Shown in pieces: positions 38,999 to 55,670 of a stretch of 64,000 nucleotides of DNA. A model generated the notes under the pieces. The model did no database searches, was not told the origin of the DNA, and was given only the letters and a program-made list of their open reading frames with translations. This DNA comes from an uncultured Spirochaetaceae bacterium (GTDB lineage Bacteria > Spirochaetota > Spirochaetia > Sphaerochaetales > Sphaerochaetaceae). Location: assembly GCA_944389075.1 (NCBI GenBank), contig CALXLA010000044.1, positions 1 through 64,000 of the forward strand, in the 5' to 3' direction. Both the position numbers and the translations under genes were made by a program. The number at the start of each line of letters is the position of its first letter. The first letter of the stretch is position 1.

Positions 38999-39027
38999 CG
39001 GCGGACAATGTCCGCCGCTTTTATTTC
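38999..39027 (+). terminator. Terminator of the ModE-FecBCD operon
   Basis: CGGCGGAC-AAT-GTCCGCCG (38999-39006, 39010-39017) is followed by CTTTTATTT. The stem is GC-rich and perfect. Confidence 0.93.
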
Positions 39028-39258
39028 AGACTTTCCCAAGAAATTTCATTATAGGCATATATCTTAGTTTTCACATATAGAAGAATACTCGTTTATTTTA
39101 TGGAAACGAACTGCAACACTTAGTCTTTGACTGGAACTGATTTCTCATACAGATGCTCCGGTATTATGTCACTACTGAACATTATATGAATATTTTCTTT
39201 TTATTCTGACAATATCTGTCATACATGGAAGATATCCTGCTCATATGGAGAAAAAATT

Positions 39259-41520
39259 ATGAGCTTTGTTCATCTTCATTGCCACACGGACTATTCTTTC
39301 GGAGATTCCACAGCACGGATTGAAGACTACATAGAGTCTGCCAGAAAAGCAGGAATGAAAATACTCGCAATCTCTGACAGCAACAGCATTGCAGGGGCAA
39401 TCAGATTTGCTGAGTCATGCATCGATGCAGATATAAAACCGATAATAGCAGCTGAGCTGTCAACCTGTTTAGGAAATATCATATGCATTGCCATGAATAA
39501 CAGAGGATTGAACAGTCTATCAAGACTGATTAATCTCTCCAGCAGTCTAATCACTGCGAAAGACCTGAAGAATAATAATGAAGGCCTGATCTGCCTTTCC
39601 GGATATCTTGCAGGAAAGCTAACACAGAAAATACTGGCAGATGATATTGCTGAAGCAAAATCTATCGCACTCTGGTTCAAGGAAGTTTTTGCTGACAGAT
39701 TCTACCTTGAAATGCAAGATCATGGTAAAGACGAAGACAGGAAAGTTCTTCCCTCGATAAAAGCAATATCCGAAGAACTCGGAATAGAAACTGTATGCAC
39801 GAATGATATCCACTATATCAAAAGCGAAGATGCTGATGCCTATAATACTCTTTGCTGCATCAAAAATGGCAGCATGAAGGATCTTCCATTGGAAAGCGGG
39901 GAATACTATTTCAAATCTCCTGAACAGATGGAAGAGCTCTTTTCCTGGTGCCCGGAAGCAGTTGAGAATACTTCCAGAATTGCAGACAGATGCAATATTG
40001 ACTTTGCTTCATATTTGCAGATGCAGCAGGAATACCCTTACACAGATGGTCATGAATCCGCAGACCTGCTTGTAAAGCTTGTCAATCAAGGCATCGAGAA
40101 TCGGTATCCAGTAGTCACAGACACAATCAGACAGCGTATTGATGCTGAATTAAAGGTGATCATAGAAAGGGGCTATTCAGATTACTTCATGATTATCCAT
40201 GATCTTGTCACCTGGGCCAGAAGAAAAGGCATAGTATTCTCCCCTGGTCTGGGTCATTCCGTCAGCTCGATTGTCTGCTATATACTGGAAATCACAGATA
40301 TCGATCCTATCGAGTATGGTCTTGTTTTCGAGAGATTCATCAAACAAGATACGCAATTGGGAATCACTACCATTTTGGAAGTGGACGAAGACGGATTCCC
40401 GATGATACTCAGATATCTGAATATAAAATACGGAAACCAGAATCTTGCGTATACCAACCGCTTTTACACAAAACATGATATTTCATCTGCAGCAAGACTC
40501 ATCGCTCCAGCATATGGCAATCCTGATTTATCATGGCTTACGAACGAAACGACAGACATGCTTGAGAAGAAAATCAAAATGCAGAATTGCTTCAGCGATA
40601 ATAAAATCCAGCATGCTGATTCTTTTGTTTCAAGTGTCATGAAAATCATAGGGTTAATCAATGGCTACAAACTGGATTCATACCCCACAATGACAATCTG
40701 CAGGCTTAAAGACAGACATCTGCCTATGCATGATAATCCGGACTTCGATCTGCCGATCATCCAATATGACTGGTTCTTAAACCTGCTGGTTTTCGAAATC
40801 CGTCCTGCTAGGAATCAGCAGATAATCAGACATGCAGAGAAGATAATCAGGTTCATGTATGATTCTGATTTCGATATCAGGAAAATCAACATGTCTGATG
40901 CAAAGACTTTTGCACTCATCAATTCTGGAGACGATAGCCATGGATGGGGAATATTCACTCCGTTCATCGATATCATCCCATCTGCAGAAGAATTCTATAT
41001 ATTCGATGATTGCGAGTTTTTCCTGAAGGAAGAACTGATGAAACTAAAGCCACAGTCCATCAGGGATCTGGCTGTTTCGGCATTACTTGCCTCTAATCTT
41101 TCTCCTATATCAGTTGAAGAATATCTGAAAAAAGAAGAAATCGCAAATCAGGAAAAAGCTAAGATCCTTGAAGAGACAAATGGGCATATACTCTATACCG
41201 AACAGTTTATACAGGCAATTCAGCTCATCCATGGAGTTACACTGCCTTTCAGCGAATCTTTAGTCAGAGGATTCAATAAGAAAAAAGCTTCAGAACTGAA
41301 AGCTCTTCATGATAGATTCAAGACAATAGCGAAGGATAACGGAATGGATTCCGATACAGCTGAAAAGATCTTCTATACATACCTGTATGAATCAGATAAA
41401 TATACGAACAGTAAGGAAGTATTCATTCCCTGTGCAATGGTTGTTTATCAGCTTGGCTTCATCAAGGCAAATTATCCTGATGTGTTTCAGACTGCTCTGT
41501 CAAAGTTCTGTGACAAATGA
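39259..41520 (+). CDS. DnaE-like protein with lost polymerase active site
   Basis: A 753-residue relative of DNA polymerase III alpha (DnaE, usually about 1100-1200). PHP domain: starts HLHCHTDYSFGDS, keeps FYLEMQDHG and TNDIHY, but has ISDSNSI where ITDHGN is usual. Palm: GPGRGSAAGS has become SPGLGHSVSS; PDIDxDF, carrying two catalytic aspartates, has become ITTILEVDEDGF; and KFDFLG, the third, has become VFEIRP. Fingers: HILYTEQFIQAIQLIHGV and RGFNKKKASELKAL match, but GFNKSH is lost. It ends after the fingers, lacking clamp-binding and OB domains. The frame is intact over 2.2 kb, so it is maintained, probably as a non-catalytic factor. Start after GGAG. Confidence 0.85.
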   Translation: MSFVHLHCHTDYSFGDSTARIEDYIESARKAGMKILAISDSNSIAGAIRFAESCIDADIKPIIAAELSTCLGNIICIAMNNRGLNSLSRLINLSSSLITAKDLKNNNEGLICLSGYLAGKLTQKILADDIAEAKSIALWFKEVFADRFYLEMQDHGKDEDRKVLPSIKAISEELGIETVCTNDIHYIKSEDADAYNTLCCIKNGSMKDLPLESGEYYFKSPEQMEELFSWCPEAVENTSRIADRCNIDFASYLQMQQEYPYTDGHESADLLVKLVNQGIENRYPVVTDTIRQRIDAELKVIIERGYSDYFMIIHDLVTWARRKGIVFSPGLGHSVSSIVCYILEITDIDPIEYGLVFERFIKQDTQLGITTILEVDEDGFPMILRYLNIKYGNQNLAYTNRFYTKHDISSAARLIAPAYGNPDLSWLTNETTDMLEKKIKMQNCFSDNKIQHADSFVSSVMKIIGLINGYKLDSYPTMTICRLKDRHLPMHDNPDFDLPIIQYDWFLNLLVFEIRPARNQQIIRHAEKIIRFMYDSDFDIRKINMSDAKTFALINSGDDSHGWGIFTPFIDIIPSAEEFYIFDDCEFFLKEELMKLKPQSIRDLAVSALLASNLSPISVEEYLKKEEIANQEKAKILEETNGHILYTEQFIQAIQLIHGVTLPFSESLVRGFNKKKASELKALHDRFKTIAKDNGMDSDTAEKIFYTYLYESDKYTNSKEVFIPCAMVVYQLGFIKANYPDVFQTALSKFCDK

Positions 41521-41725: not shown

Positions 41726-43387
41726 ATGATTGTAAAAGAAATATTCTCAAATAATGGAATCCATTTACACTACAAATACTTTGGAATAACAGATTTTGCT
41801 ACTTATTTTGAATTAAATTCATTATTAGAACATTTGCCTTTTGTTATTGATACTATTTCAAAACTTGAATTAACATGTCTGGATACAATAGATAATTTAA
41901 AAGATTTTATATTCATAAAGAAAATCTCTTTGTTTGCTGAAATTAAGAGTCAAATAAAACATGATTATCAACAGGATTTTGGATACTTACTAAAATACAC
42001 AAATAATATACTTAATAATTTTACAAAAAAAGACATAATAAAGTGCATCAATCAATCATATCAGGATTTTTTTACAGAGAAAGATAATTATGATGATTTC
42101 TATTCAGTCATTTTCGATTATATGATATCTTTTCAGACAGGAATATCCAAAAAAGTTTTTTTGCTATTTGCAAAGAAAAAGAAGAACTATATTCTAAATA
42201 ACTTTGGAAAACTCGGATCAATAAAATACAACATTGAATTCTTTAACGAGATTCTCCCTCCTTCTTTCAGTTTAAAAGAAGCTAAAGAACTTGGTCTGAA
42301 TCGAGTATTCTCAATATTCTCAAATATCTTAACAGATAAACTCTCACCTTTTAAAGAAAATATAAACATCTTCTTAGATAGGATCATCAATGAAGAAATT
42401 GAAATATTAAATAACGAACAAACCGTAATTACTAACATTATGCATATTGAAAGTGAATATCGTATAATACTATCCTTTTTAAAGAAAATTAAACATCATA
42501 GGACTTTTCAACTCCAAAAATACCAGAATCACATCAATTCGATTCTAGATAATCATCTTTTAAATCATGGTCAATCTTTTTCATTTACATTGCAAATTCA
42601 GGAAATCCTAATGGAAATAAAGAATATAGAAAACTGGCAATTGAAAATATTAATGTTAACCCATGAATATAGAGAAATTGATAAAAAATTCAGAAGCATT
42701 CTCTCGTGCAAGTCCAAAGGAAAACAACACATAATAGATTATGTATCAAGCAATATACCTACAAATGAATATTTTACTTTTTCACATCAGCAATTTCTAG
42801 AATTAATATATATTAATGGGGCAGCAATAATTCAAAGTCTTTGGCATGATTCTGAATTATATCCATCACTTAAAACATGGTATAGATCAATACTGATAGC
42901 TATTGATGAATCAATTGAAAGTGGCGAAAATTTAGCGGATGATATTAATATTGCATTTGCTTTATTGGATTGTATTTTACTTGGAAACAATAAAGATCAA
43001 GATTTATTGATAGCCAATTCCTATGGCGCTTGTATATTTATATGTGCAATGATTGAAAAGCTTTTAAGAGTTATATTCATTGATATTAATTCATTCAAAG
43101 GTATTTATGTTCCAGTTGAATACATACAATTAGGTTCTTTATTAAATTCACTTGAGATAAAAAATATATTAGGAGAAAATCATACAAAAACACTTTTATT
43201 CTATTTAGGACATGCCGATGCAGAACATATTGGATATAATATTCGTAATTCATTGGCACATTTAACAGAATACAATCTGAAAAATATAACACCACTTCAA
43301 GCTTGCAGCCTTTTTTATATTTATACCGATATTTTAAATTCCATAATGCTCAATAGATTCTATTCAGATCACTATATTCCAGAATAA
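41726..43387 (+). CDS. AT-rich unknown protein with C-terminal HEPN-like motif
   Basis: I do not recognise this 553-residue protein as a whole. It is far more AT-rich than all neighbours, with many Asn, Ile, Lys and Phe codons, so it was probably acquired recently. It appears mainly helical and has no signal peptide. Near the C-terminus GYNIRNSLAHLTEYNL gives RNSLAH, an Rx4H pattern found in HEPN ribonuclease domains and in DUF4209-like proteins, followed by a long helix. It could be an abortive-infection RNase. ATG 41726 follows GAAGG with TATAAT at 41702-41707. It lies just outside the guaA-end repeat. Confidence 0.6.
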   Translation: MIVKEIFSNNGIHLHYKYFGITDFATYFELNSLLEHLPFVIDTISKLELTCLDTIDNLKDFIFIKKISLFAEIKSQIKHDYQQDFGYLLKYTNNILNNFTKKDIIKCINQSYQDFFTEKDNYDDFYSVIFDYMISFQTGISKKVFLLFAKKKKNYILNNFGKLGSIKYNIEFFNEILPPSFSLKEAKELGLNRVFSIFSNILTDKLSPFKENINIFLDRIINEEIEILNNEQTVITNIMHIESEYRIILSFLKKIKHHRTFQLQKYQNHINSILDNHLLNHGQSFSFTLQIQEILMEIKNIENWQLKILMLTHEYREIDKKFRSILSCKSKGKQHIIDYVSSNIPTNEYFTFSHQQFLELIYINGAAIIQSLWHDSELYPSLKTWYRSILIAIDESIESGENLADDINIAFALLDCILLGNNKDQDLLIANSYGACIFICAMIEKLLRVIFIDINSFKGIYVPVEYIQLGSLLNSLEIKNILGENHTKTLLFYLGHADAEHIGYNIRNSLAHLTEYNLKNITPLQACSLFYIYTDILNSIMLNRFYSDHYIPE

Positions 43388-45308: not shown

Positions 45309-48300
45309 TTATATTCTCTTATTCCGAGCGTGATTGATTTCAGCACGCACCGTGTCCACGCAATAATCCATATCTTCAATCAGCTCTTTGACAACAAAAC
45401 GCATCGGTTTCCAGCCATATTGTTCAATAGCTGCATCTCTGCGGAAGTCACTTTCCTTTCTCGACCCATCAGCATTGAAATGATACTGATACCCATCCAC
45501 CTCGATATCAAGCCTCACAAATTCATCCTGATATGCCATATCAAACCGGTATCCGAGAAAACTGTATTGCGGTTTTGTTTCAATTCCAGCTTTTTGAAGA
45601 GCGTTGAATAAGGCCTCTTCCCATACAGAATCAAATGTGACATTGTCATCTCTCTTTCTGGAGTATTCACTAAGCATACTCAGTATTTTCGAAGATGAAT
45701 TTCTGCTGAGAGTCTTGTTTCCTATGACAATAAGACACGCCTTAGCTCTGCTTAATGCAACATCATAGATGTTATTGTTCTGCTCATTGGTAAGATACCA
45801 GATCTGTTTATTCCTCATATCAGGAAGATACCCAAGGACAAACAGAATCACATCACACTCCCCTCCTTGAAATCCATAGGCTGTGTCAACTTTGACATCA
45901 TTATGGGAGAACCCATTCCCGTAGATTTCATTTGCAAGTCTGTTTGCCACTGCACGTAAAGGAGTAACAACACCGATAGAACCATTGTAATTTTTGTTCT
46001 TAAAATCCTTAAGAAACCCAATGCAAGTACTGATTTCGTGATCAAGGCCATCTTCAATATTTATCCATCGCAGGTGGTCACCTGTTTCAAATCCAGGAGG
46101 ATAATTCAAAGGCCGTTCATTTGTACGAATACGAAGATTTCCATTGTAAAAGGCCTTATTGATAAAACCAGCTATGTCTGCGTCGCAACGGAAATGTTCT
46201 TTCAGCATTGATGGTTTAGCAAAACGAGAAGCAATTGAATAGGCTGTGTTTGTATAAAACTCAAAAGAGGCCGTATTCGAATCAACAGAATAGTACTTTC
46301 CAAGAATCATATCATGCCGCCTCTTGCTCATCGTGATGATGGGCCGAAACTGCTCTGGGTCGCCAATAATCATTGCTCTCTTGGCTCTGAATAACATTGG
46401 AATCACGGAGACACAATCACACTGGGAGGCCTCATCGATAACAACCATATCGAAGACTCCGCCTGCAAGAGGAGAAGCATGGCGTGCTGAAAGAAGAGAA
46501 ACAGCCCATGCAGGAACTACTGAAAACATCTTCTGCTCAGCAGTTACCATTTTAGATTGCCTATCCTTAGAAAGGGCTTTCCATGTCGGGCCTGATTTGC
46601 TTGCAGCAGATCTCTGCTGCCCGATGAATTCATAGTCCTTTTCATCAAGAGTGCGTATCTGCTCCCCCCATTTATACAGAAGAGAGGAGGAAGCATTGTC
46701 AATCATATTCTTCATCGCAGCATTGTAATCGTCGCTATAATCTTTGCTTCCTGAAACTGCAGTATGGTATTCAGCATATGCTTTATTGACTTCTGCTTTT
46801 GCTTTTCTGTATGAAGCTGAGGCCGTGACCAACTCCTTGCAGATAGCATCTAGCTTCTTATCCTTATCAATCGAGATACTTGAAATCAGATGATATTTCT
46901 CGACAAGCTGAATTCTCGCATCCTCAATCTTCTTGCCATGGAGCATTCGATACAAGAACCCGGCAATTCCAGCTTTCTTCGAAGAATCAACTATAATGGC
47001 CAATCTGAGTATTTCACTGAGGGTTTGATCTTTGAAGACCGAAGAATCAGCATGAACAAGAATGGACTTCAGATGGGTAAGCTCTGATATATATTTCTGC
47101 TCAATCTTCAGATATGACGATACAATGTTATTCAATTCCTCTGAGACTTCTTTGATCTCAGAGACGGTATTTGCAGAATCCAAGACTATCTTGTCAGAAG
47201 CTTCACCGGAGGCTGGAACTGCAGAAAGAATTGTCCGCGCTTCCTCTTCTGGCTTCACCTGATACCAGTCAGTCAATTCTCCATCATCGCTATTACAATA
47301 TCGTATGAGCGGAATGGACCTGGATTCTGAAAGAAGTGTATCTGCTCTATCATGAATCGCCTCAAGAGCAGCGTGGTTACGGCTAGAGAAAACAACTGAC
47401 ATGCCTCGATATACACAGTTGGCTATAAGATTGACAGCAACCTGTGATTTACCTGTTCCCGGTGGGCCTTGAAGCACTGTGAGATGATGAGATAATGCAT
47501 CCTCGACCGCTTCAAGTTGCTCACTATTGCTAGTCAAGAAAGGAATTGCTGAGATTCTGGCTTCATTTGTATCTTTGTAAGGGTGCTTGCGGAAAATGTA
47601 TGCAAGCGCAGATTTGTCAAGCTCTGCAGCATCCGCCTGTTCTATCATCTTAAGTTCACGGATAAGGCCGTTATTGAAAACAGTATTGTCTGTTCGGAAA
47701 AGAATCACAGTATTGCATAGCTTCCTTCTCTTCTGTCTGCTCGATACTTTCGGAAGTGTCTGTACAGTGCGTTCAGGATCGAATTCATCGGCAATGTTTG
47801 AATATGTTGAGTATCCGATGATTGTTCTTAGAGCATGAGCCAGATTCAGTCCATCATCTTCCTCAAGTTCATCAAAGAGTTCATCAAGCTGTGATAAATC
47901 ACAGTTACGGGTTATCCACTCAAAATTGTAAGAGGCATTCTTGAATAAAGGCTTGATGCGTACTTTGTAATCCTTGCCAGGCCTATCATCTTTTGAAAAA
48001 TAATCACAAAAGCATATAGGGATCAGGAATAGTGGAAGATAGTCATAGACTTCTCCGTTCTCATCAAACCGAGCTTCAACTGGATATCCTATACAGGCTT
48101 CAGGCGAAGACTCATTACTTTGAGCAATAGCATGAAGCATCTTTGATTCTCTTGCCTTAAGAGATATGACGAAATCAGGTTCAAAATCGCTTTTATGAGA
48201 AGGAAACCATAATGATGGTATTGTTGGAGGAATATAGAACTGCTGTCCTTGCTTTGTCACAGATAAATGGAATTCCTTACGGTCCTCAGTCTTCACACAT

Positions 48301-48608
48301 TCAATGTAATAAGATAGAAGCTTCCTAAAATCAGTCCACTCTGCCTCTGTGCTCATCGTATTTCCAGAAGCCCCCATCCCAAGTCTGTTTTTGGGGAAAA
48401 TCTGTAGACCAATGTCCGCAATGCCAACAATCATTCCATTCGATTTGATTACATTCTTCCGTTTCATAAGATGAAGAAGAGATGGAGCATCACCGGGGCG
48501 TATTCTGTTAAGCAAGTCTATGAAATCATCATAGGTATAGTTACGGGGTTTACCGCCTCTGACTTCCCATTGCTCAAGTACTGCTATGATTTCTTCTCTT
48601 TCAGTCAT
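45309..48608 (-). CDS. SF1 (UPF1-like) helicase with C-terminal VSR/DUF559-like nuclease
   Basis: A 1099-residue helicase-nuclease, last gene of the island operon. Walker A GPPGTGKS is at 381-388, DEAD-like box VIDEASQC near 740, GDPEQFRPI follows, and late motifs DTAYGFQGGECDVI and DVALSRAKACLIV show an SF1 UPF1-like core split by a coiled insert (about 480-650). Residues 1000-1095 form a PD-(D/E)xK domain of the VSR/DUF559 kind: SVWEEALFNAL, GYRFDMAY, RLDIEVDGYQYH. The N-terminal 370 residues are unassigned. It starts nine bases after the Hsp70-like stop. Helicases of this type accompany CoCoNuT systems and are thought to unwind RNA or DNA targets. Confidence 0.88.
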   Translation of the reverse strand: MTEREEIIAVLEQWEVRGGKPRNYTYDDFIDLLNRIRPGDAPSLLHLMKRKNVIKSNGMIVGIADIGLQIFPKNRLGMGASGNTMSTEAEWTDFRKLLSYYIECVKTEDRKEFHLSVTKQGQQFYIPPTIPSLWFPSHKSDFEPDFVISLKARESKMLHAIAQSNESSPEACIGYPVEARFDENGEVYDYLPLFLIPICFCDYFSKDDRPGKDYKVRIKPLFKNASYNFEWITRNCDLSQLDELFDELEEDDGLNLAHALRTIIGYSTYSNIADEFDPERTVQTLPKVSSRQKRRKLCNTVILFRTDNTVFNNGLIRELKMIEQADAAELDKSALAYIFRKHPYKDTNEARISAIPFLTSNSEQLEAVEDALSHHLTVLQGPPGTGKSQVAVNLIANCVYRGMSVVFSSRNHAALEAIHDRADTLLSESRSIPLIRYCNSDDGELTDWYQVKPEEEARTILSAVPASGEASDKIVLDSANTVSEIKEVSEELNNIVSSYLKIEQKYISELTHLKSILVHADSSVFKDQTLSEILRLAIIVDSSKKAGIAGFLYRMLHGKKIEDARIQLVEKYHLISSISIDKDKKLDAICKELVTASASYRKAKAEVNKAYAEYHTAVSGSKDYSDDYNAAMKNMIDNASSSLLYKWGEQIRTLDEKDYEFIGQQRSAASKSGPTWKALSKDRQSKMVTAEQKMFSVVPAWAVSLLSARHASPLAGGVFDMVVIDEASQCDCVSVIPMLFRAKRAMIIGDPEQFRPIITMSKRRHDMILGKYYSVDSNTASFEFYTNTAYSIASRFAKPSMLKEHFRCDADIAGFINKAFYNGNLRIRTNERPLNYPPGFETGDHLRWINIEDGLDHEISTCIGFLKDFKNKNYNGSIGVVTPLRAVANRLANEIYGNGFSHNDVKVDTAYGFQGGECDVILFVLGYLPDMRNKQIWYLTNEQNNNIYDVALSRAKACLIVIGNKTLSRNSSSKILSMLSEYSRKRDDNVTFDSVWEEALFNALQKAGIETKPQYSFLGYRFDMAYQDEFVRLDIEVDGYQYHFNADGSRKESDFRRDAAIEQYGWKPMRFVVKELIEDMDYCVDTVRAEINHARNKRI

Positions 48609-48617
48609 CTGCTTTCC

Positions 48618-51146
48618 CTATAGATCTGCTGTAGGTATATTGAGATTGCCTTTGCCATTCAGATACAAATTAAGAATCGACCCCCATCTCTTTACATCCC
48701 CAAAACATGAGTCATTCCTTCTTGCAATATTTCTCAGTACAGATTCATCATGCAGCAATCCAACATTCATCAATACAGATTCTGATAAGTACTGATAAAA
48801 GCACTTCTCAAAAGCCTGCCTTTGAGACAGCTTCAAACCAATTGCTTTATAAATAAGTAACACTTCAGAATCCTTGTAATCGGAGATATTCAGAAGACTT
48901 ATGTACCTATCAATAAATAGCCTGACAGGCTCAGTGCCATTTGACGATAACATATTAAGAAGAATGTAATAGCTTCCATCTACAGTAATGACATCATTTT
49001 CATCCTGTTTGCAGAACTCAGAGTAAACGCTCCTGAGTTTCATCATAAAACAGAGAATTTTACATATATTCGAACGAATGCCTGATCCGCTTTGACTTGA
49101 GTAATAAGAAGAAATGAGCATATTCAGAGTTGTATATATCTGTGAAAGATCCTGAGCCAGTATCTCGAAGACATCGGGGTTGCTCATCATTATCTGATAG
49201 GCAGCACGATACCAGTGATTTGCCCCACTGACTCCTTGCTCAAAGCTTCCTGTAGATAACTTACGGAAGAATGCTTTCATGAATAGAACCCCATCATCCT
49301 GTGATGTGAACATGTTCGCACAGAATGATGCTTTTCCAGCATCCAATTTAAAGTATTTAGTCGAACATCTCTGTCCGAGATCTCTTATATATTTTCTTAC
49401 ATATTCTGTAACATGAGGAACCTGCAGAGGATGATATGTCCAGGCTGCTAGGGTGATAAGATCGGAAGAATGAGCTACCTCGAAACGTTCATCGATTGTA
49501 TTAAGAAATTTCAGGCATGCTTCCTTCTGATCCGGGTCTTCAGGCAATCCATCATCATCTTCAGTCGGTACACCAAATGTGTTATAGCGTTCAAATCTGG
49601 TAATATCCTTAGCTGCTGGATGAGCCCAGACCGATTTATTGATATCAGCCCCCTGCAAGAAAGCATTATTAAGTATGAAGCATCGAATCGGAAGATATAC
49701 TGAATCTGTAAGATATCCGGATTTCTTTCTGACATAAGGAATATCAGGAGGAAAGGAACGTTCCATTTCGCTCTCTAGTGTTTCTAGCGTCTTATCAGAA
49801 TCCTCCATCTTCTCCCAGTCGAGCTGGAGTCCCCTGAATATCGTTTCATACTTATGGTCTTTAGCAACGATATCAACAGAGGCTCTTCCCTGTCCAGGAA
49901 TCAGAGATGGTTGCAGTTCAAGTTCAATTGTCTTTCCATGGATTTCTTTTCTAAGTTCATCTGGGATATCAAAAGGCTGGAAAAGGCTTTTAAGCGGAGC
50001 ATTGCGTTTCTGCTCTCCCAATCGAAGATAGAATTCGACGTTTTTTGTCTCAGGATGAAGATAGATTCCATCAACAGTCTTACCAACAATCCTCTTACTG
50101 CTCCTGAGCCTCTGATCTGCTTCGATAAGAGTTTTGAAATGATATCGCTCACTCCTGTCTGCAACAACAAGGCTAAGAGCCTCGCACTCATCAAAGTAAG
50201 CCGTTATTTCATGCTCCATGCAATTTGCAAAACAGGCCGCACCATAAGCAATGGAATCACCGGTGGTATCTATTATCGGATTTTCGAACCATCTCTTAAG
50301 GGTGTCTCTAACCTCTGAACTCAGATTCCCAACAGCAATCACAGTTGTTATGCCTGTATTGCTGAGAAGTCTTATCCCATACAGGGGATCAATCGGGGCT
50401 ATTGCTCTCTCAGAAGCCGGTTGCAGCATGCCAGCCTTTATTTCATAAGGAATCTGAGGCTTAAGAACATCAGCTTTCAATACTCTGTTGAATGGATAGT
50501 TCTCTGATCTGACATATCCAGTATCAGAGTTGAGGAATAGCCTATGTGCCGGAATCCAGAAACCATCACATTCCTCAATCCAGAGATATGATATGGTTGT
50601 TCCAGTTGGCTCTATATCAACAACGGCAACCTTTTCGTGTTCACTGAATTCTTTCTGAATTCTCTCAGCATTGCCTAGAAAAGCCGCTACTGAACGCCAT
50701 AAAAGGACTGGGGTTTTATGAAGCCCATCTGTAGCAGCTTTTATCAGTTTGTTCTGGAAATCGGCAGGCAGACGATCTGGGACAGGAATCACCAGTTTCT
50801 CTGTCTTATCTATCTTTTTTCCTGCAAGAGGAAGGAAAACAGCTCTGAACCAATTCCGAAGACTCTCAGTATCTTCGCGGTCACTACCTGATAATGCCAA
50901 TATCTTTCTTAAATCAGCAGCCTTGGAAGCATCAATGGAAAACCCTTGGGCATCTTTGATGATTAGATCATCCAGCACTATATGTTCTGAATCGATGACA
51001 TAAGGCTGTTTATTTGAACTGCTATCAGGAGAAATCAATATCAGAGGAAGCTTCAGCTCATCACTTTTTATGGCATCCGTTTTTTCAGATGGCTCATAGC
51101 CGTAATACTTTCCTCCCCAGAGGTCCATAACAGAAAATGAACTCAT
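48618..51146 (-). CDS. Hsp70-like ATPase-fold protein of the island operon
   Basis: An 842-residue protein with an actin/Hsp70-type first part. VMDLWGGKYYGY replaces the usual phosphate-1 DLGTTNS; VAVVDIEPTGTTISYLWI (near 175) is phosphate-2; and TTVIAVGNLSSEVRDTLKRW with GDSIAYGAACFA (near 270-300) corresponds to the Hsp70 VGG...AVAYGAA region. Both phosphate loops are altered, so ATP hydrolysis is uncertain. From about 420 onward it is alpha-helical without a named domain. It overlaps the McrC-like gene by four bases. Hsp70 homologues are described in CoCoNuT systems and proposed to bind RNA. Confidence 0.75.
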   Translation of the reverse strand: MSSFSVMDLWGGKYYGYEPSEKTDAIKSDELKLPLILISPDSSSNKQPYVIDSEHIVLDDLIIKDAQGFSIDASKAADLRKILALSGSDREDTESLRNWFRAVFLPLAGKKIDKTEKLVIPVPDRLPADFQNKLIKAATDGLHKTPVLLWRSVAAFLGNAERIQKEFSEHEKVAVVDIEPTGTTISYLWIEECDGFWIPAHRLFLNSDTGYVRSENYPFNRVLKADVLKPQIPYEIKAGMLQPASERAIAPIDPLYGIRLLSNTGITTVIAVGNLSSEVRDTLKRWFENPIIDTTGDSIAYGAACFANCMEHEITAYFDECEALSLVVADRSERYHFKTLIEADQRLRSSKRIVGKTVDGIYLHPETKNVEFYLRLGEQKRNAPLKSLFQPFDIPDELRKEIHGKTIELELQPSLIPGQGRASVDIVAKDHKYETIFRGLQLDWEKMEDSDKTLETLESEMERSFPPDIPYVRKKSGYLTDSVYLPIRCFILNNAFLQGADINKSVWAHPAAKDITRFERYNTFGVPTEDDDGLPEDPDQKEACLKFLNTIDERFEVAHSSDLITLAAWTYHPLQVPHVTEYVRKYIRDLGQRCSTKYFKLDAGKASFCANMFTSQDDGVLFMKAFFRKLSTGSFEQGVSGANHWYRAAYQIMMSNPDVFEILAQDLSQIYTTLNMLISSYYSSQSGSGIRSNICKILCFMMKLRSVYSEFCKQDENDVITVDGSYYILLNMLSSNGTEPVRLFIDRYISLLNISDYKDSEVLLIYKAIGLKLSQRQAFEKCFYQYLSESVLMNVGLLHDESVLRNIARRNDSCFGDVKRWGSILNLYLNGKGNLNIPTADL

Positions 51147-52465
51147 AATGTTAACCCCCTGAAGAAAGAAGATGACACAATTGCGTTATATATGTCATGG
51201 GCAATATCATCACTGACAGACTTACCGACAAAGCGCATTGATTCCGTCTCTGCTCTGTACTCATTTCCTGATTCTGAATAGATTATCGATAAGCCTCTTC
51301 TTTCTGCTGTGAAAACATCCAGATGTGCATAATCAGGAATCAGATAGCATCGGATTACATGCTTTACATCTCCCATAACCGTATTAAGGATGTTTCCATC
51401 ACGGCATCTGAACTCTATTCCCTCATCATTATCCATAATCCGGAAAGAACGATTAGTTTCACCGCAATAGTCAAAATATGCTTGATTGGGATCTGAACAG
51501 AATGTTCCATTCTCTGAAGCATACTGGAACATCCAGATATCATGACTGATTGCACCTTCGGTATGAATTCTGTCATCGATTGCAGCAATTGCAATAAGCT
51601 TAGCTGTCTCATAGAACATCCTATGCCGATAACGCCACATAGTTTCAATCTCAGTAATATGATTCGCCAGACGAAGATAGCTGAGCCAGATTGCGTGATA
51701 GAATCTATTGTTCTGCAAAGTATAATTCGGTACCGGCACAGAATGAAGCATCCTGACTTCATTGAATTCTGGCATTGAAAGGCCTTTGCTTACAAGTGAG
51801 ACGAATCTGCGCACAAGAGCAACTTTCTTAGAGTTCCTGTATCTATCTTCTCTACCATATTTTGCAATATATCGCCGGCCTTCATTGAGACTATAAATCA
51901 TATACTGCTTTAGAACTCTGTTTTCGAGTGTATCCATTGATTCATGCCTCACAACCCCCATAAGCTTCTGCTTTGTTCCACCTTTCTCGACAGCAGTGTA
52001 GCCAGGCTGCCTTGCAAGCCATCTCATGCAATAGCTGTCTATCTGCTGGATATTGCCAAGAGGAACAAGCTCCTGATTTCGTCGCAGGACTTTTCGAGGA
52101 CTCTGTAGAAGATGTTGAAGTGAGATGAAATCGTTATCTGCTATCTGCACTATCATCTTCGAAGGAGGCTCATCAGAATAAGACGTATTAGAACAGTAAT
52201 CGAGAATAGAGGAAAGCTTTACAGGAAGCTCCTTGCGTTTATTCCTGATCCTATAAGGAAGAGCCAGGTCAGTTTCTGCCTCGTCGAGGATTGCTGTATA
52301 GAACTCACGCATATCATCCATGACATCGAATTTCAGCAGAATCTCATCGGATTGGCTGGAAGAGGCATAATATCGCCTGACTTCACGCGTATCAGTATAA
52401 ATCTCTTCTGTGAAGCGCTCATTGATTGATCCTGGATAAATGCGGAAGTCAGATAATATGGACAT
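51143..52465 (-). CDS. DUF2357/McrC-like protein
   Basis: A 440-residue protein with the DUF2357 core common to McrC proteins: LVPLGNIQQIDSYCMRWLA, then MGVVRHESMDTLENRVLKQYM (near residues 180-205), followed by helices. In McrC this part is joined to a PD-(D/E)xK nuclease that cuts DNA. I do not see a convincing D...ExK arrangement in the last 130 residues, so the nuclease may be lost or very divergent. ATG 52465 follows CAGGT; it starts five bases after the McrB-like stop. It should bind and stimulate the McrB-like partner. Confidence 0.75.
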   Translation of the reverse strand: MSILSDFRIYPGSINERFTEEIYTDTREVRRYYASSSQSDEILLKFDVMDDMREFYTAILDEAETDLALPYRIRNKRKELPVKLSSILDYCSNTSYSDEPPSKMIVQIADNDFISLQHLLQSPRKVLRRNQELVPLGNIQQIDSYCMRWLARQPGYTAVEKGGTKQKLMGVVRHESMDTLENRVLKQYMIYSLNEGRRYIAKYGREDRYRNSKKVALVRRFVSLVSKGLSMPEFNEVRMLHSVPVPNYTLQNNRFYHAIWLSYLRLANHITEIETMWRYRHRMFYETAKLIAIAAIDDRIHTEGAISHDIWMFQYASENGTFCSDPNQAYFDYCGETNRSFRIMDNDEGIEFRCRDGNILNTVMGDVKHVIRCYLIPDYAHLDVFTAERRGLSIIYSESGNEYRAETESMRFVGKSVSDDIAHDIYNAIVSSSFFRGLTL

Positions 52466-52470
52466 CACGA

Positions 52471-54399
52471 TTACCTGCTGACACCCTTCCACTGGAAGAA
52501 GGTGTTGCTGTTCCTGCTGGAAATCACTTCTGAAAAAATCTTTGTAAGCTCATCATCTTTGACTTTTTCTATCGTGCCCAGCATTGAACGAAGCACATCA
52601 GAAACCGCCGATTCTGACATATCAACGCCATTCAGTTTCGGGAGTATCTTCATCTCTATCTGATCAGCCAATGCTGCATTGAAGCTGGCTGGATCTTTAT
52701 CAGCACCCGGATACATCGAGACATAAGTCTCTATTGATCTCCACACACGATAAGCGAATGGATGGTTAATCTTTGCCATATTCTGATTCAGTTCAGTCAC
52801 TATTGAATCAAGCCTTTCCATCAGGTCTGGATGGAGTTTCTTTTCTTTGCAGAGCTTCTTCCATGAACTGTACTGCATATATCTTCCATCATCAGGATAC
52901 TTCTTGAAGAAAACATCATTGTCCATCTTGGCATTTATTGATTCAGGCATTCCGAATCGGAGCACATTCGCCCTATCCATTACTTTATCTGATAGAGTCT
53001 GTGTCGTCTCATCCTCATTCATCGTTCCAACGAAGAGAGTATTGGAGTCAACAAACAATCGTCTTGCGGACTCTGAATCACCTATTGAACCACCTTCAAT
53101 CTCAATCTCTGCTGTTTTTCTGACATCATCGTCAAATTTATCAGAGATACTCCTACGCTGTTCGAGCTTGCTCAGCATGTCGCTGAAGTAATACTCAACC
53201 CTTGCCAGGTTCATCTCATCTAGAAGCACGATGTTCATAGGAAGGGAGTCCTCTGTAGGATACTTCTTTATCACTTCCGCTTTATTGTTGAAGATATCAA
53301 ACTGCCATAGCATTCTTGAAAGCTCGGTTGCTTTGTATCTGTTCTGCATGTAGTTGTAGAATCCGAACATATCCTGTGGGCTATCCCATCTTGGTTGAAC
53401 AGCAACTGAAAGGAAATTCATTCCGAACGCCCGGGCATAGAGAGATGGCAAGAGACTCTTTCCTGTTCCTGAAATTCCTGCTAAGACAACAAGCGGAGAG
53501 GCGTCTTCAGCCTTGAGGCTGGTATGGAAAGCATTGATAGTCCTATCGCTGAAGATGATATTGCTATCCTTAAGAGCCTCTTTGAAGCCATTAAGCATAC
53601 TCTCTTCATCTTCATCTTTCATTGGGATTGCGCCTTTGTCAAAATAAGGCCTATCCAGATCTTCCCATCTTGTCTTCTCAGCCTTTTCTCGTCCCTCTTC
53701 CTTAGCCCATTGAATCTTGGAAGCTTCAAGATCTGTCGTCAGTTTTTCAAGCTTCTGCCTACCCTGCTCATATTGAGTCTGGACTTCTTGGCTCTTTGCT
53801 CTTGCCTCCTCAGTCTGCCTTTCGAGTGAGTTCTTCTCTTCCTTAAGCTTCTGAATATCAAGCCTGAGATTATCAACTTGGATTTTTAGGCCTTCTATCT
53901 GTTTATCGAGTTCATTAATCTGATCGTTCTTCTTATTTATCTCAGTGATGAGTGAATCATGTTTCTCCTGCTGATCCTTGATCTCTTTATCAAGCTTATG
54001 CTGATTCTCCTGAAGTTCTGTAAGTTCCTCATTCTTCGTTTTAAGGTCATCATCAGCAGCTTGAAGCTTTGAGGTTATCTCTTTGATATCCTCATTCATC
54101 TTATCTATAAGAAGTTTCTTATCATCATAATCTTTCTGGAAATCATTGATGAATTTCTCCATTGCTTCTTTCTTGTCTATGATCTGCTGAACAGCAAGCT
54201 TCTCAGCTTCGAGCTGCTTAATCTGCTCTTTGACGTAGTAGTAGTTATCCCTAGCCGCTGCAATTGCGCTTTCAAGCTTCTCTCTGGTCCGGTTGTATGG
54301 GTTCAATCTACGTGCTCTGAAGTACATGACACAGGAAAAAACAACAATGATAAGAAGAATGCCTACTGAGACTATTGCCGTTAATATTACAAGAATCAT
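52471..54399 (-). CDS. Membrane-anchored coiled-coil McrB-like AAA+ protein
   Basis: A 642-residue protein in three parts. Residues 3-27 are a membrane helix. Residues about 40-240 form a long, unbroken coiled coil rich in Lys, Glu, Gln and Leu. Residues 285-640 are a McrB-type AAA+ domain: Walker A AGISGTGKS (308-315), Walker B IVLLDEMNLARVEYYF (390-405), sensor-like LFVGTMNEDETTQTLSDK and arginine-rich VMDRANVLRF. It overlaps the coiled-coil partner upstream by four bases. McrB homologues with coiled coils define CoCoNuT systems; a membrane anchor puts this one at the cell envelope. GTP or ATP use is unknown. Confidence 0.9.
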   Translation of the reverse strand: MILVILTAIVSVGILLIIVVFSCVMYFRARRLNPYNRTREKLESAIAAARDNYYYVKEQIKQLEAEKLAVQQIIDKKEAMEKFINDFQKDYDDKKLLIDKMNEDIKEITSKLQAADDDLKTKNEELTELQENQHKLDKEIKDQQEKHDSLITEINKKNDQINELDKQIEGLKIQVDNLRLDIQKLKEEKNSLERQTEEARAKSQEVQTQYEQGRQKLEKLTTDLEASKIQWAKEEGREKAEKTRWEDLDRPYFDKGAIPMKDEDEESMLNGFKEALKDSNIIFSDRTINAFHTSLKAEDASPLVVLAGISGTGKSLLPSLYARAFGMNFLSVAVQPRWDSPQDMFGFYNYMQNRYKATELSRMLWQFDIFNNKAEVIKKYPTEDSLPMNIVLLDEMNLARVEYYFSDMLSKLEQRRSISDKFDDDVRKTAEIEIEGGSIGDSESARRLFVDSNTLFVGTMNEDETTQTLSDKVMDRANVLRFGMPESINAKMDNDVFFKKYPDDGRYMQYSSWKKLCKEKKLHPDLMERLDSIVTELNQNMAKINHPFAYRVWRSIETYVSMYPGADKDPASFNAALADQIEMKILPKLNGVDMSESAVSDVLRSMLGTIEKVKDDELTKIFSEVISSRNSNTFFQWKGVSR

Positions 54400-55670
54400 C
54401 TTGCACCTCCTTCGGATGCATCTTCACTGAGTTGGTTTGCTTTTGCTTCAAGCTGTCCGATTGTTCGATTGAGTTCTGCAATTCTGCTATCAAGAGAACT
54501 TATCTCTGCTCGTTTCTGAGTCAGTTCAGCATCAGCTGCTGATATAGAAGTTGCGACTACGGATAGTGCTGATTGCCTAGAAGTGAAATCAGACACAGAT
54601 GACTGTAAAGTCTCTATCTGTTCATTTAGATTATTCTTGGTATTCTCAAGAACCGCGACATCAGATTCAAGAGAAGATTGCTGTACAGAAAAATCTGAAA
54701 CCTGCTTTTGAAGAGTATTATATTCTGCTGTAAGAGAAGCTAGCCTAGCATTTGTCGAAGCCAATGTACTTTCAGCTTCACTGTTATCAGCAATGAAAGA
54801 AAGAAGCTCACTTTTCTGCTGCGTAAGAGATGAAACATCACCGGAAAGAATTTCCTTTGTGTTAGAAAGCGCTGCGATTTCTGAATTCAAAGCATTCCTT
54901 TGTGATGTAAGGTCTGACACAATAGTAGCAAGATTCTGATTCTGATTCTGAAGGTCAGAAAGATTGTCCTGAGCATCTGCAACCTGTGAATCAAGCAGGT
55001 TCTTGGTATTCTGCTGTCTTGATATCGAATCATTGAGAATATTAAGAGAGGACTGTGTATCGCTGACAGACTGACGAAGTGCTTCGTACTGATCATTCAG
55101 TTCATCATTGCGGGATGTCAAAGCTGTGTTCAACCCTGCCAATCTTGAATTCTCACTCTGCAGGTTGCTTTGAGTATCCATCAATCCATTAACATCATTC
55201 TCCAATGCGGTTTTCTGCTCATTCAGAACATTGTTTGCATTCTGAAGATCTATACTTCTCTGTGCCTCATCTGAAAGATCGGCTATCGTCTGATTCAGGG
55301 ATTCAATCTCATTCTGCAGAGCATTTCGCTGATTCGTGAGGATAGATATCTTGTCTTCCTCACTTACTCTTAGCTCTTCCATATGTGAATTGAAGGTTGT
55401 TCGTTCTTCCTCTACACTGACTCTGAATTCCGACAGCGTGTTTTCCCACTCAAGGAAATCCTCGGAATAATAAGTGATTGCAGCAATTGCAGCAATTGCA
55501 GCCAGCACAGCAATAAGCACAGCCAAACAGTAAATCAGTTTACCTCTCTGACTATCTTTTATTTCCTTCGCAGTAGGTTCGAAATCGAAATCAATCACAT
55601 TCGAAGCCTGCTCCTGCTCATCCTCCAGATTCTGCTCTGAAAAGTCTGTATCATTTGGATTCTGTGACAT
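54396..55670 (-). CDS. Coiled-coil membrane protein, first gene of the defence-like operon
   Basis: A 424-residue protein. Residues 1-42 are acidic and presumably cytoplasmic, 43-68 form an alanine/isoleucine-rich membrane helix (LIYCLAVLIAVLAAIAAIAA), and 70-420 are almost wholly coiled coil with Ser, Asn, Gln and Leu heptads. It has no enzymatic domain. Its architecture mirrors the membrane helix and coiled coil of the McrB-like partner, so the two may pair side by side in the membrane. ATG 55670 follows a GGGGAG-type site. It may be the sensor or scaffold of the system. Confidence 0.85.
   Translation of the reverse strand: MSQNPNDTDFSEQNLEDEQEQASNVIDFDFEPTAKEIKDSQRGKLIYCLAVLIAVLAAIAAIAAITYYSEDFLEWENTLSEFRVSVEEERTTFNSHMEELRVSEEDKISILTNQRNALQNEIESLNQTIADLSDEAQRSIDLQNANNVLNEQKTALENDVNGLMDTQSNLQSENSRLAGLNTALTSRNDELNDQYEALRQSVSDTQSSLNILNDSISRQQNTKNLLDSQVADAQDNLSDLQNQNQNLATIVSDLTSQRNALNSEIAALSNTKEILSGDVSSLTQQKSELLSFIADNSEAESTLASTNARLASLTAEYNTLQKQVSDFSVQQSSLESDVAVLENTKNNLNEQIETLQSSVSDFTSRQSALSVVATSISAADAELTQKRAEISSLDSRIAELNRTIGQLEAKANQLSEDASEGGAR

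Follow-up and report, generated by a model that had tools for sequence, protein, structure and literature searches.

An extra, truncated DnaE without its catalytic aspartates in an uncultured spirochaete: a possible replisome mimic

What use could a bacterium have for a second, shortened replicative polymerase gene from which the catalytic aspartates are missing? The question is raised by a locus in a contig of an uncultured Spirochaetaceae bacterium, of which a stretch of 64,000 nucleotides (the window) was analysed. At positions 39259–41520 of the forward strand lies a 753-codon frame with zero internal stops; the opposite strand is stop-rich. Translation, Pfam and structure matches assign to the 753-aa product, here called a mini-DnaE, a PHP domain, palm/thumb and fingers (PHP 1.8e-31, DNA_pol3_alpha 1.9e-31, DNA_pol3_finger 4.5e-16), and the protein stops past the fingers. 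Its top relatives among solved structures are chains of Escherichia coli Pol III alpha, to which residues 3–747 align, reaching E. coli residue 787. The end of the protein is equivalent to E. coli 787–792, and the HhH, clamp-binding, OB and CTD parts are absent. By homology (Pfam and model) the order of PHP and Pol3 folds is that of a C-family polymerase; the (HhH)2 and beta-clamp-binding region of that family is lacking. NCBIfam DnaE models score the protein under their cut-offs (NF004226, 406 versus 1002 bits; TIGR00594, 386 versus 434 bits). An earlier note on this DNA had described an intact frame that tracks DnaE from PHP to fingers without the clamp-binding and OB parts, and translation, Pfam and alignment confirm that description.

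The only other match to the mini-DnaE in the host genome is the full-length dnaE, a 1143-codon open frame on contig C35 with 36% identity to it. This gene alone encodes the C-terminal HhH/OB/CTD part. With a complete dnaE of the host's own present and a separate C-terminal half absent, the mini-DnaE is an additional, truncated paralogue and not the replicase or half of a split DnaE. Known split DnaEs (the cyanobacterial DnaE-N with its intein, and split phage DnaEs) likewise carry the N-terminal part as its own gene, but they have a separate C-terminal half. Such a half is found in none of seven genomes tested, each of which has a full-length dnaE only, and the split-gene reading is rejected.

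Four motifs of the polymerase part, located by alignment on the forward strand, are altered. (i) SPGLGHSVSS stands in place of GPGRGSGAGS (residues 328–339; 40240–40275), and the R and S of GRGS are lost. (ii) The two-aspartate motif PDFDVDF is replaced by ITTILEVDEDGF (residues 369–380; 40363–40398), in which its counterpart reads ITTILEV(DEDGF). (iii) VFEIRPA replaces KMDFLGL (residues 511–517; 40789–40809), with K553 changed to V and D555 conservatively swapped for Glu (E513). (iv) In the fingers, TNSKEVF takes the place of GFNKSHA (residues 716–722; 41404–41424); FNKSH has become NSKEV, with K alone retained. The catalytic strand can be read in two registers. Against ordinary DnaEs, a 36-row alignment pairs D401/D403/D405 with T370/I372/E374, and an alignment including other mini-DnaEs pairs them with I372/E374/D376. 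The catalytic residues D401/D403/D555 read T/I/E or I/E/E, with Asp at none of the three sites in either register. The motif changes and the absence of all three aspartates reported in the earlier note are borne out, with two refinements: D555 has become Glu, and the register of the strand is uncertain. One survey reports the three aspartates as absolutely conserved across the C family, but it had excluded sequences whose active site was not intact (PMC3919608). Judged from these substitutions, the window mini-DnaE very probably cannot polymerise DNA.

An AlphaFold model of the protein (pLDDT 80, pTM 0.68; lowest confidence in the palm, about residues 360–520) superposes on the Pol III alpha structures of Taq (2hpi) and E. 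coli (2hnh) over 721–725 residues with Z scores of 38–39. This is the comparison with DnaE that had been proposed, and with fair confidence the model suggests that a DnaE-like fold is retained. In domain order and predicted fold the protein resembles DnaE1/Pol III alpha (2hnh, 2hpi) throughout PHP, palm/thumb and fingers, but it has lost the catalytic aspartates and nucleotide-binding residues together with everything from HhH, clamp-binding and OB parts to the CTD.

A mini-DnaE is defined here as a DnaE paralogue that ends right past the fingers in a genome that also carries a full-length dnaE, as is found in the window genome. The window copy belongs to a patchy Spirochaetia family of such proteins, about 710–805 aa long and apparently undescribed. 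A mini-DnaE or its remains is present in 7 of 48 genomes of the genus: the window genome, G004 (two copies), G018, G035 and G071, with broken copies in G034 and G006. Two genomes of another family in Spirochaetia (f22) also carry minis, G056 (708 aa) and G132 (793 aa), the latter followed by a 426-aa copy without the palm. All genomes are MAG data, and contig ends truncate three family members. The complete members share one end point, right past the fingers (YPxEF in most) and ahead of HhH. Whether the same residues are lost across species, as the earlier note asked, has a mixed answer: often, but not in every case. Among seven members with readable sites, all three aspartates are kept in G004b and G071s, and D401 alone is lost in G132a. 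Four have lost two or three: D401 and D555 in G018s, and all three, lost or replaced, in the window copy, G004a and G056s. Since two of the seven keep all three, loss of catalysis is a repeated outcome and no family rule.

In the tree, G004b, G018s and G071s make up a clade with full support that is nested within the genus DnaEs; the f22 minis G056s and G132a group with f22 DnaEs. A single clade of these five minis is rejected (p-AU 7e-86). Mini-DnaEs arose at least twice from a resident dnaE, with the same cut point. The long branch of the window copy (4.7 changes per column) leaves its exact position uncertain. No close sister is claimed for it, and long-branch attraction may explain its pairing with G004a; the two share the same three losses of PHP ligands despite the doubtful pairing. 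The second copy in that genome, G004b (L032:13797–16211, reverse strand), is 98% identical in nucleotides to its host dnaE in a 60-codon block close to its 3' end and 53–84% identical elsewhere, an apparent trace of gene conversion with the resident dnaE.

A pattern-limited alignment search gave 80 named loci among the matches listed; every one was an ordinary DnaE, either complete or interrupted by a contig end, and no mini-DnaE from beyond Spirochaetia was among them. With the window protein as single query, peptide patterns gave no match in genome and viral contigs, and plasmid and phage collections gave, among the matches listed, only DnaEs of less than 30% identity. Several viral contigs (L203, L211, L212, L214 and similar) have N-terminal DnaE halves as frames of about 780–790 aa; L211 and L212 carry the next part 5 kb downstream as a frame of its own: split DnaE genes in viruses. 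No described family with this architecture had been known to the author of the earlier note, and none was found described here either. DnaEX/DnaE2 proteins (PMC3919608) are likewise additional diverged dnaE copies, but an intact active site was required for those sets and HhH is nearly universal in them; the window mini-DnaE differs in both. A 2026 survey, in the parts consulted, describes inactive homologues for the Y and X families and not for the C family (PMC12926913).

In true dnaE genes, palm and fingers are more conserved than PHP. In the genus minis G004b, G018s and G071s the order is reversed, with PHP 87–92% and palm 58–79% identical, and palm dN/dS is 0.20–0.30 in genus minis versus 0.02–0.06 in true dnaE. 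The PHP domain of the window copy (about residues 1–245; 39259–39993, forward strand, from Pfam and alignments) is its best-conserved part, with 48% identity to host DnaE against 20% in the palm. This reversal suggests that even copies retaining the aspartates are not selected mainly for synthesis. The f22 minis show no such contrast (PHP 50–55% and palm 62–67% identical to f22 DnaE), so the shift from palm to PHP is not general. Gene conversion and horizontal transfer of blocks could sharpen the contrast among minis.

Mainly because conservation has shifted to PHP, a PHP-anchored binding role is preferred. The tentative proposal, to which we would give a little less than an even chance, is that the window mini-DnaE is a non-synthesising replisome mimic: an extra DnaE cut to PHP, palm/thumb and fingers that acts as a decoy or dominant-negative. 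Most likely it would work by binding. It would offer a DnaE-like PHP surface, perhaps together with a DNA cleft, to one of the genuine DnaE's partners, for instance a DnaQ-type exonuclease or a phage protein able to take over or obstruct the replicase. Capture of this partner through the PHP face could then result in decoy or dominant-negative modulation. The host genome encodes RNase_T-type proteins, with candidates on contigs C51 and C2, that might serve as DnaQ partners. In E. coli, a PHP poor in ligands survives as a structural part that binds epsilon and has no nuclease activity (PMC3666897). Inactive Y-family homologues such as ImuB are likewise polymerase relatives retained without catalytic residues (PMC12926913); ImuB belongs to another polymerase family and works in the DnaE2 mutasome, whereas the window mini-DnaE lacks a clamp-binding part. 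Several points tell against mimicry. The WYL, DnaB and ANK neighbours found in relatives are missing beside the window copy; catalysis may matter in the members that keep their aspartates; and the 36% identity to host DnaE is low for a decoy. If true, a maintained dead C-family polymerase would show that replicase fragments are used outside DNA synthesis. With truncated copies of at least two origins, the same cut and conservation moved to PHP, the PHP binding partner would become directly testable.

The genomic setting of the relatives brings in defence. A small protein (S90), an ankyrin protein (ANK) and the mini-DnaE follow in this order in G018, G004b and G034, overlapping or separated by a few bases, and a NUDIX gene precedes them in G004b and G034. 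A WYL regulator adjoins the mini-DnaE in G004a and G056, lies one gene off in G071, is near the remnant in G006 and is part of the same array in G132. A truncated DnaB without the N-terminal domain is near the mini-DnaE in G004, G006 and G132; the G004 copy (L032:10488–11459, forward strand) is a 323-aa C-terminal helicase copy, 51% identical to that genome's own DnaB. The short DnaB copies in G006 and G069 have SPEE for SLEM. A DnaB tree was set aside as unreliable because of long branches. The G132 array (L089:1028–12678, one strand) contains the mini-DnaE, the palm-less 426-aa copy, a PDDEXK (AddB-like) gene, a UvrD/AddA-like gene that is the only close copy found in its genome, an antitoxin, a ParE-like toxin, the WYL regulator and a 185-aa DnaB fragment. 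A WYL gene occurs in 6 of 7 mini-bearing genomes versus 10 of 48 overall in the genus (p 1e-4, ignoring shared ancestry and MAG incompleteness), and for open-frame minis only, co-occurrence is 4 of 5 (p 0.005, not corrected for ancestry). WYL regulators are often linked to defence, and BrxR-type ones stand beside phage-defence systems in 48% of cases (PMC9122601). The setting with WYL and truncated DnaB in several genomes is read as an accessory, probably conditionally expressed cassette.

The family also appears to move horizontally, as judged from divergence. Over the same stretch, dS between the window genome (G000) and G035 is 0.34 for the mini-DnaE and 2.08 for host dnaE; for other minis it is 0.71–0.80 versus 2.6–3.8. 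About 86 bp upstream of the gene (39172–39258, forward strand) are 90% identical to the sequence before the G035 orthologue, and the similarity ends farther upstream. The low dS of the minis, together with a shared upstream stretch beyond which the loci differ, indicates that the gene appears to have moved between species.

A truncated family with at least two origins from resident dnaE, often accompanied by WYL and truncated DnaB, makes the decoy or inhibitor reading more plausible. Similar shortened copies in a second spirochaete family hint at dummy replication parts with another use, perhaps defence, and a defence role for mini-DnaEs is plausible. In its broadest form, which we consider unlikely, spirochaetes would repeatedly copy and truncate DnaE and DnaB, the polymerase part would decay, and a WYL-regulated mobile cassette would protect by mimicry; this would be the first family to include catalytically dead polymerases of the C family. 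The corresponding rival for the window copy is also unlikely in our estimate: an anti-phage component in which mini-DnaE and truncated DnaB form a WYL-controlled, host-derived replisome mimic that, upon infection, titrates away phage proteins or else poisons replication. The joint presence of mini-DnaE, truncated DnaB and WYL in two families, the repeated origin, the horizontal spread, and the AddAB-like helicase-nuclease pair and ParE-like pair in the same G132 array all speak for it. Mini-DnaB copies are few, however; the window mini-DnaE matched none of the PADLOC families, and such a partner is absent beside it. Like WYL/BrxR-regulated defence islands (PMC9122601), several mini-DnaEs adjoin a WYL regulator, but their cassette has no known defence module and the window copy has no adjacent WYL gene; that of its genome is on contig C35.

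A decidedly unlikely rival holds that the gene is a slowly decaying duplicate on mobile DNA, functionless in this genome. Broken relatives do exist (G034 is split by a stop and G006 is a remnant), the palm has diverged strongly from the host's own DnaE, and presence in the genus is patchy. Yet an unconstrained 753-codon frame would stay open at the base composition of the window with a chance of about 3e-18, and a predicted DnaE-like fold persists. The orthologue in G035, of the same genus, is a 164-codon fragment of the PHP part that ends at the contig end and is 89% identical, with 51 nucleotide and 18 amino acid differences; the selection test in the window lineage accordingly covers PHP only. 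In 20,000 neutral simulations the mean was 34 amino acid differences and the minimum 22, so that none was equally conservative, and 65% of runs acquired a stop. Over these PHP codons dN/dS is 0.17 (NG86) or 0.30 (YN00); other minis give 0.14–0.17 (NG86). Purifying selection acts on the PHP part of the window mini-DnaE. A recent pseudogene is rejected by the open frame, dN/dS and simulation, and the homologues agree with the earlier view of a maintained gene as far as PHP is concerned.

Still less likely is a PHP-based nuclease or phosphoesterase without polymerisation, with the PHP site as the working part and the rest as scaffold. No part of the genus minis is as conserved as PHP, all nine metal ligands are present in G004b and G018s, and some C-family polymerases use PHP as a proofreading nuclease (PMC3919608). 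The window copy, though, has HHDSENYDH for the nine-ligand set HHDHEH[C/H]DH (HHDHEHCDH), retaining 6 of 9, with SDSN for TDHG. Several retained ligands and this replacement had been noted before, but the nuclease idea attached to them is weakened: G004a lacks the same three, other ligands are lost in G132a and G056s, one criterion counts any ligand deviation as inactive (PMC12926913), and the E. coli PHP, with several ligands missing, has virtually no exonuclease activity (PMC3666897). A still-active, unusual polymerase is hardly credible: although E374-V-D376-E-D378 (four residues past the aligned motif) and E513 for D555 could in a shifted register put an acid at all three sites, the shift requires an insertion and a compensating deletion and places Glu at a hydrophobic strand position, the next helix (ILRYL for VIDYV) fits register 0, and GRGS, K553 and FNKSH are lost as well.

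What stands of the earlier interpretation is a maintained, diverged, catalytically disrupted paralogue; besides the nuclease, its placement next to defence genes has lost ground. Upstream of the window mini-DnaE is a FecCD-type transport operon; the gene on its other side has low GC and an RX4H (HEPN-like) motif. A terminator-like hairpin between the transport operon and the mini-DnaE gene is suggested by a consensus scan only (38999–39017, forward strand), and a promoter scan found sites no more numerous than in shuffles. The downstream gene (41726–43387, forward strand) encodes a 553-aa protein without a Pfam, PHROG or NCBIfam match, in which RNSLAHL near the C-terminus corresponds to the RX4H motif of HEPN nucleases. 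Its GC content is 26% (window 46%), versus 40% for the mini-DnaE gene, and for this reason it looks separately acquired. A functional operon of the two is unsupported, given also the 205-bp gap and a single, fragmentary relative of the HEPN-like gene in the genus (G009:C35). Farther along, a five-gene block on the reverse strand (45309–55670) looks like a candidate defence operon. It encodes an SF1 helicase with a C-terminal REase_MTES_1575 domain, an 842-aa unknown protein, a DUF2357 protein, an AAA_5 coiled-coil protein that PADLOC matches to PDC-M26A (1.2e-33), and a further coiled-coil protein.
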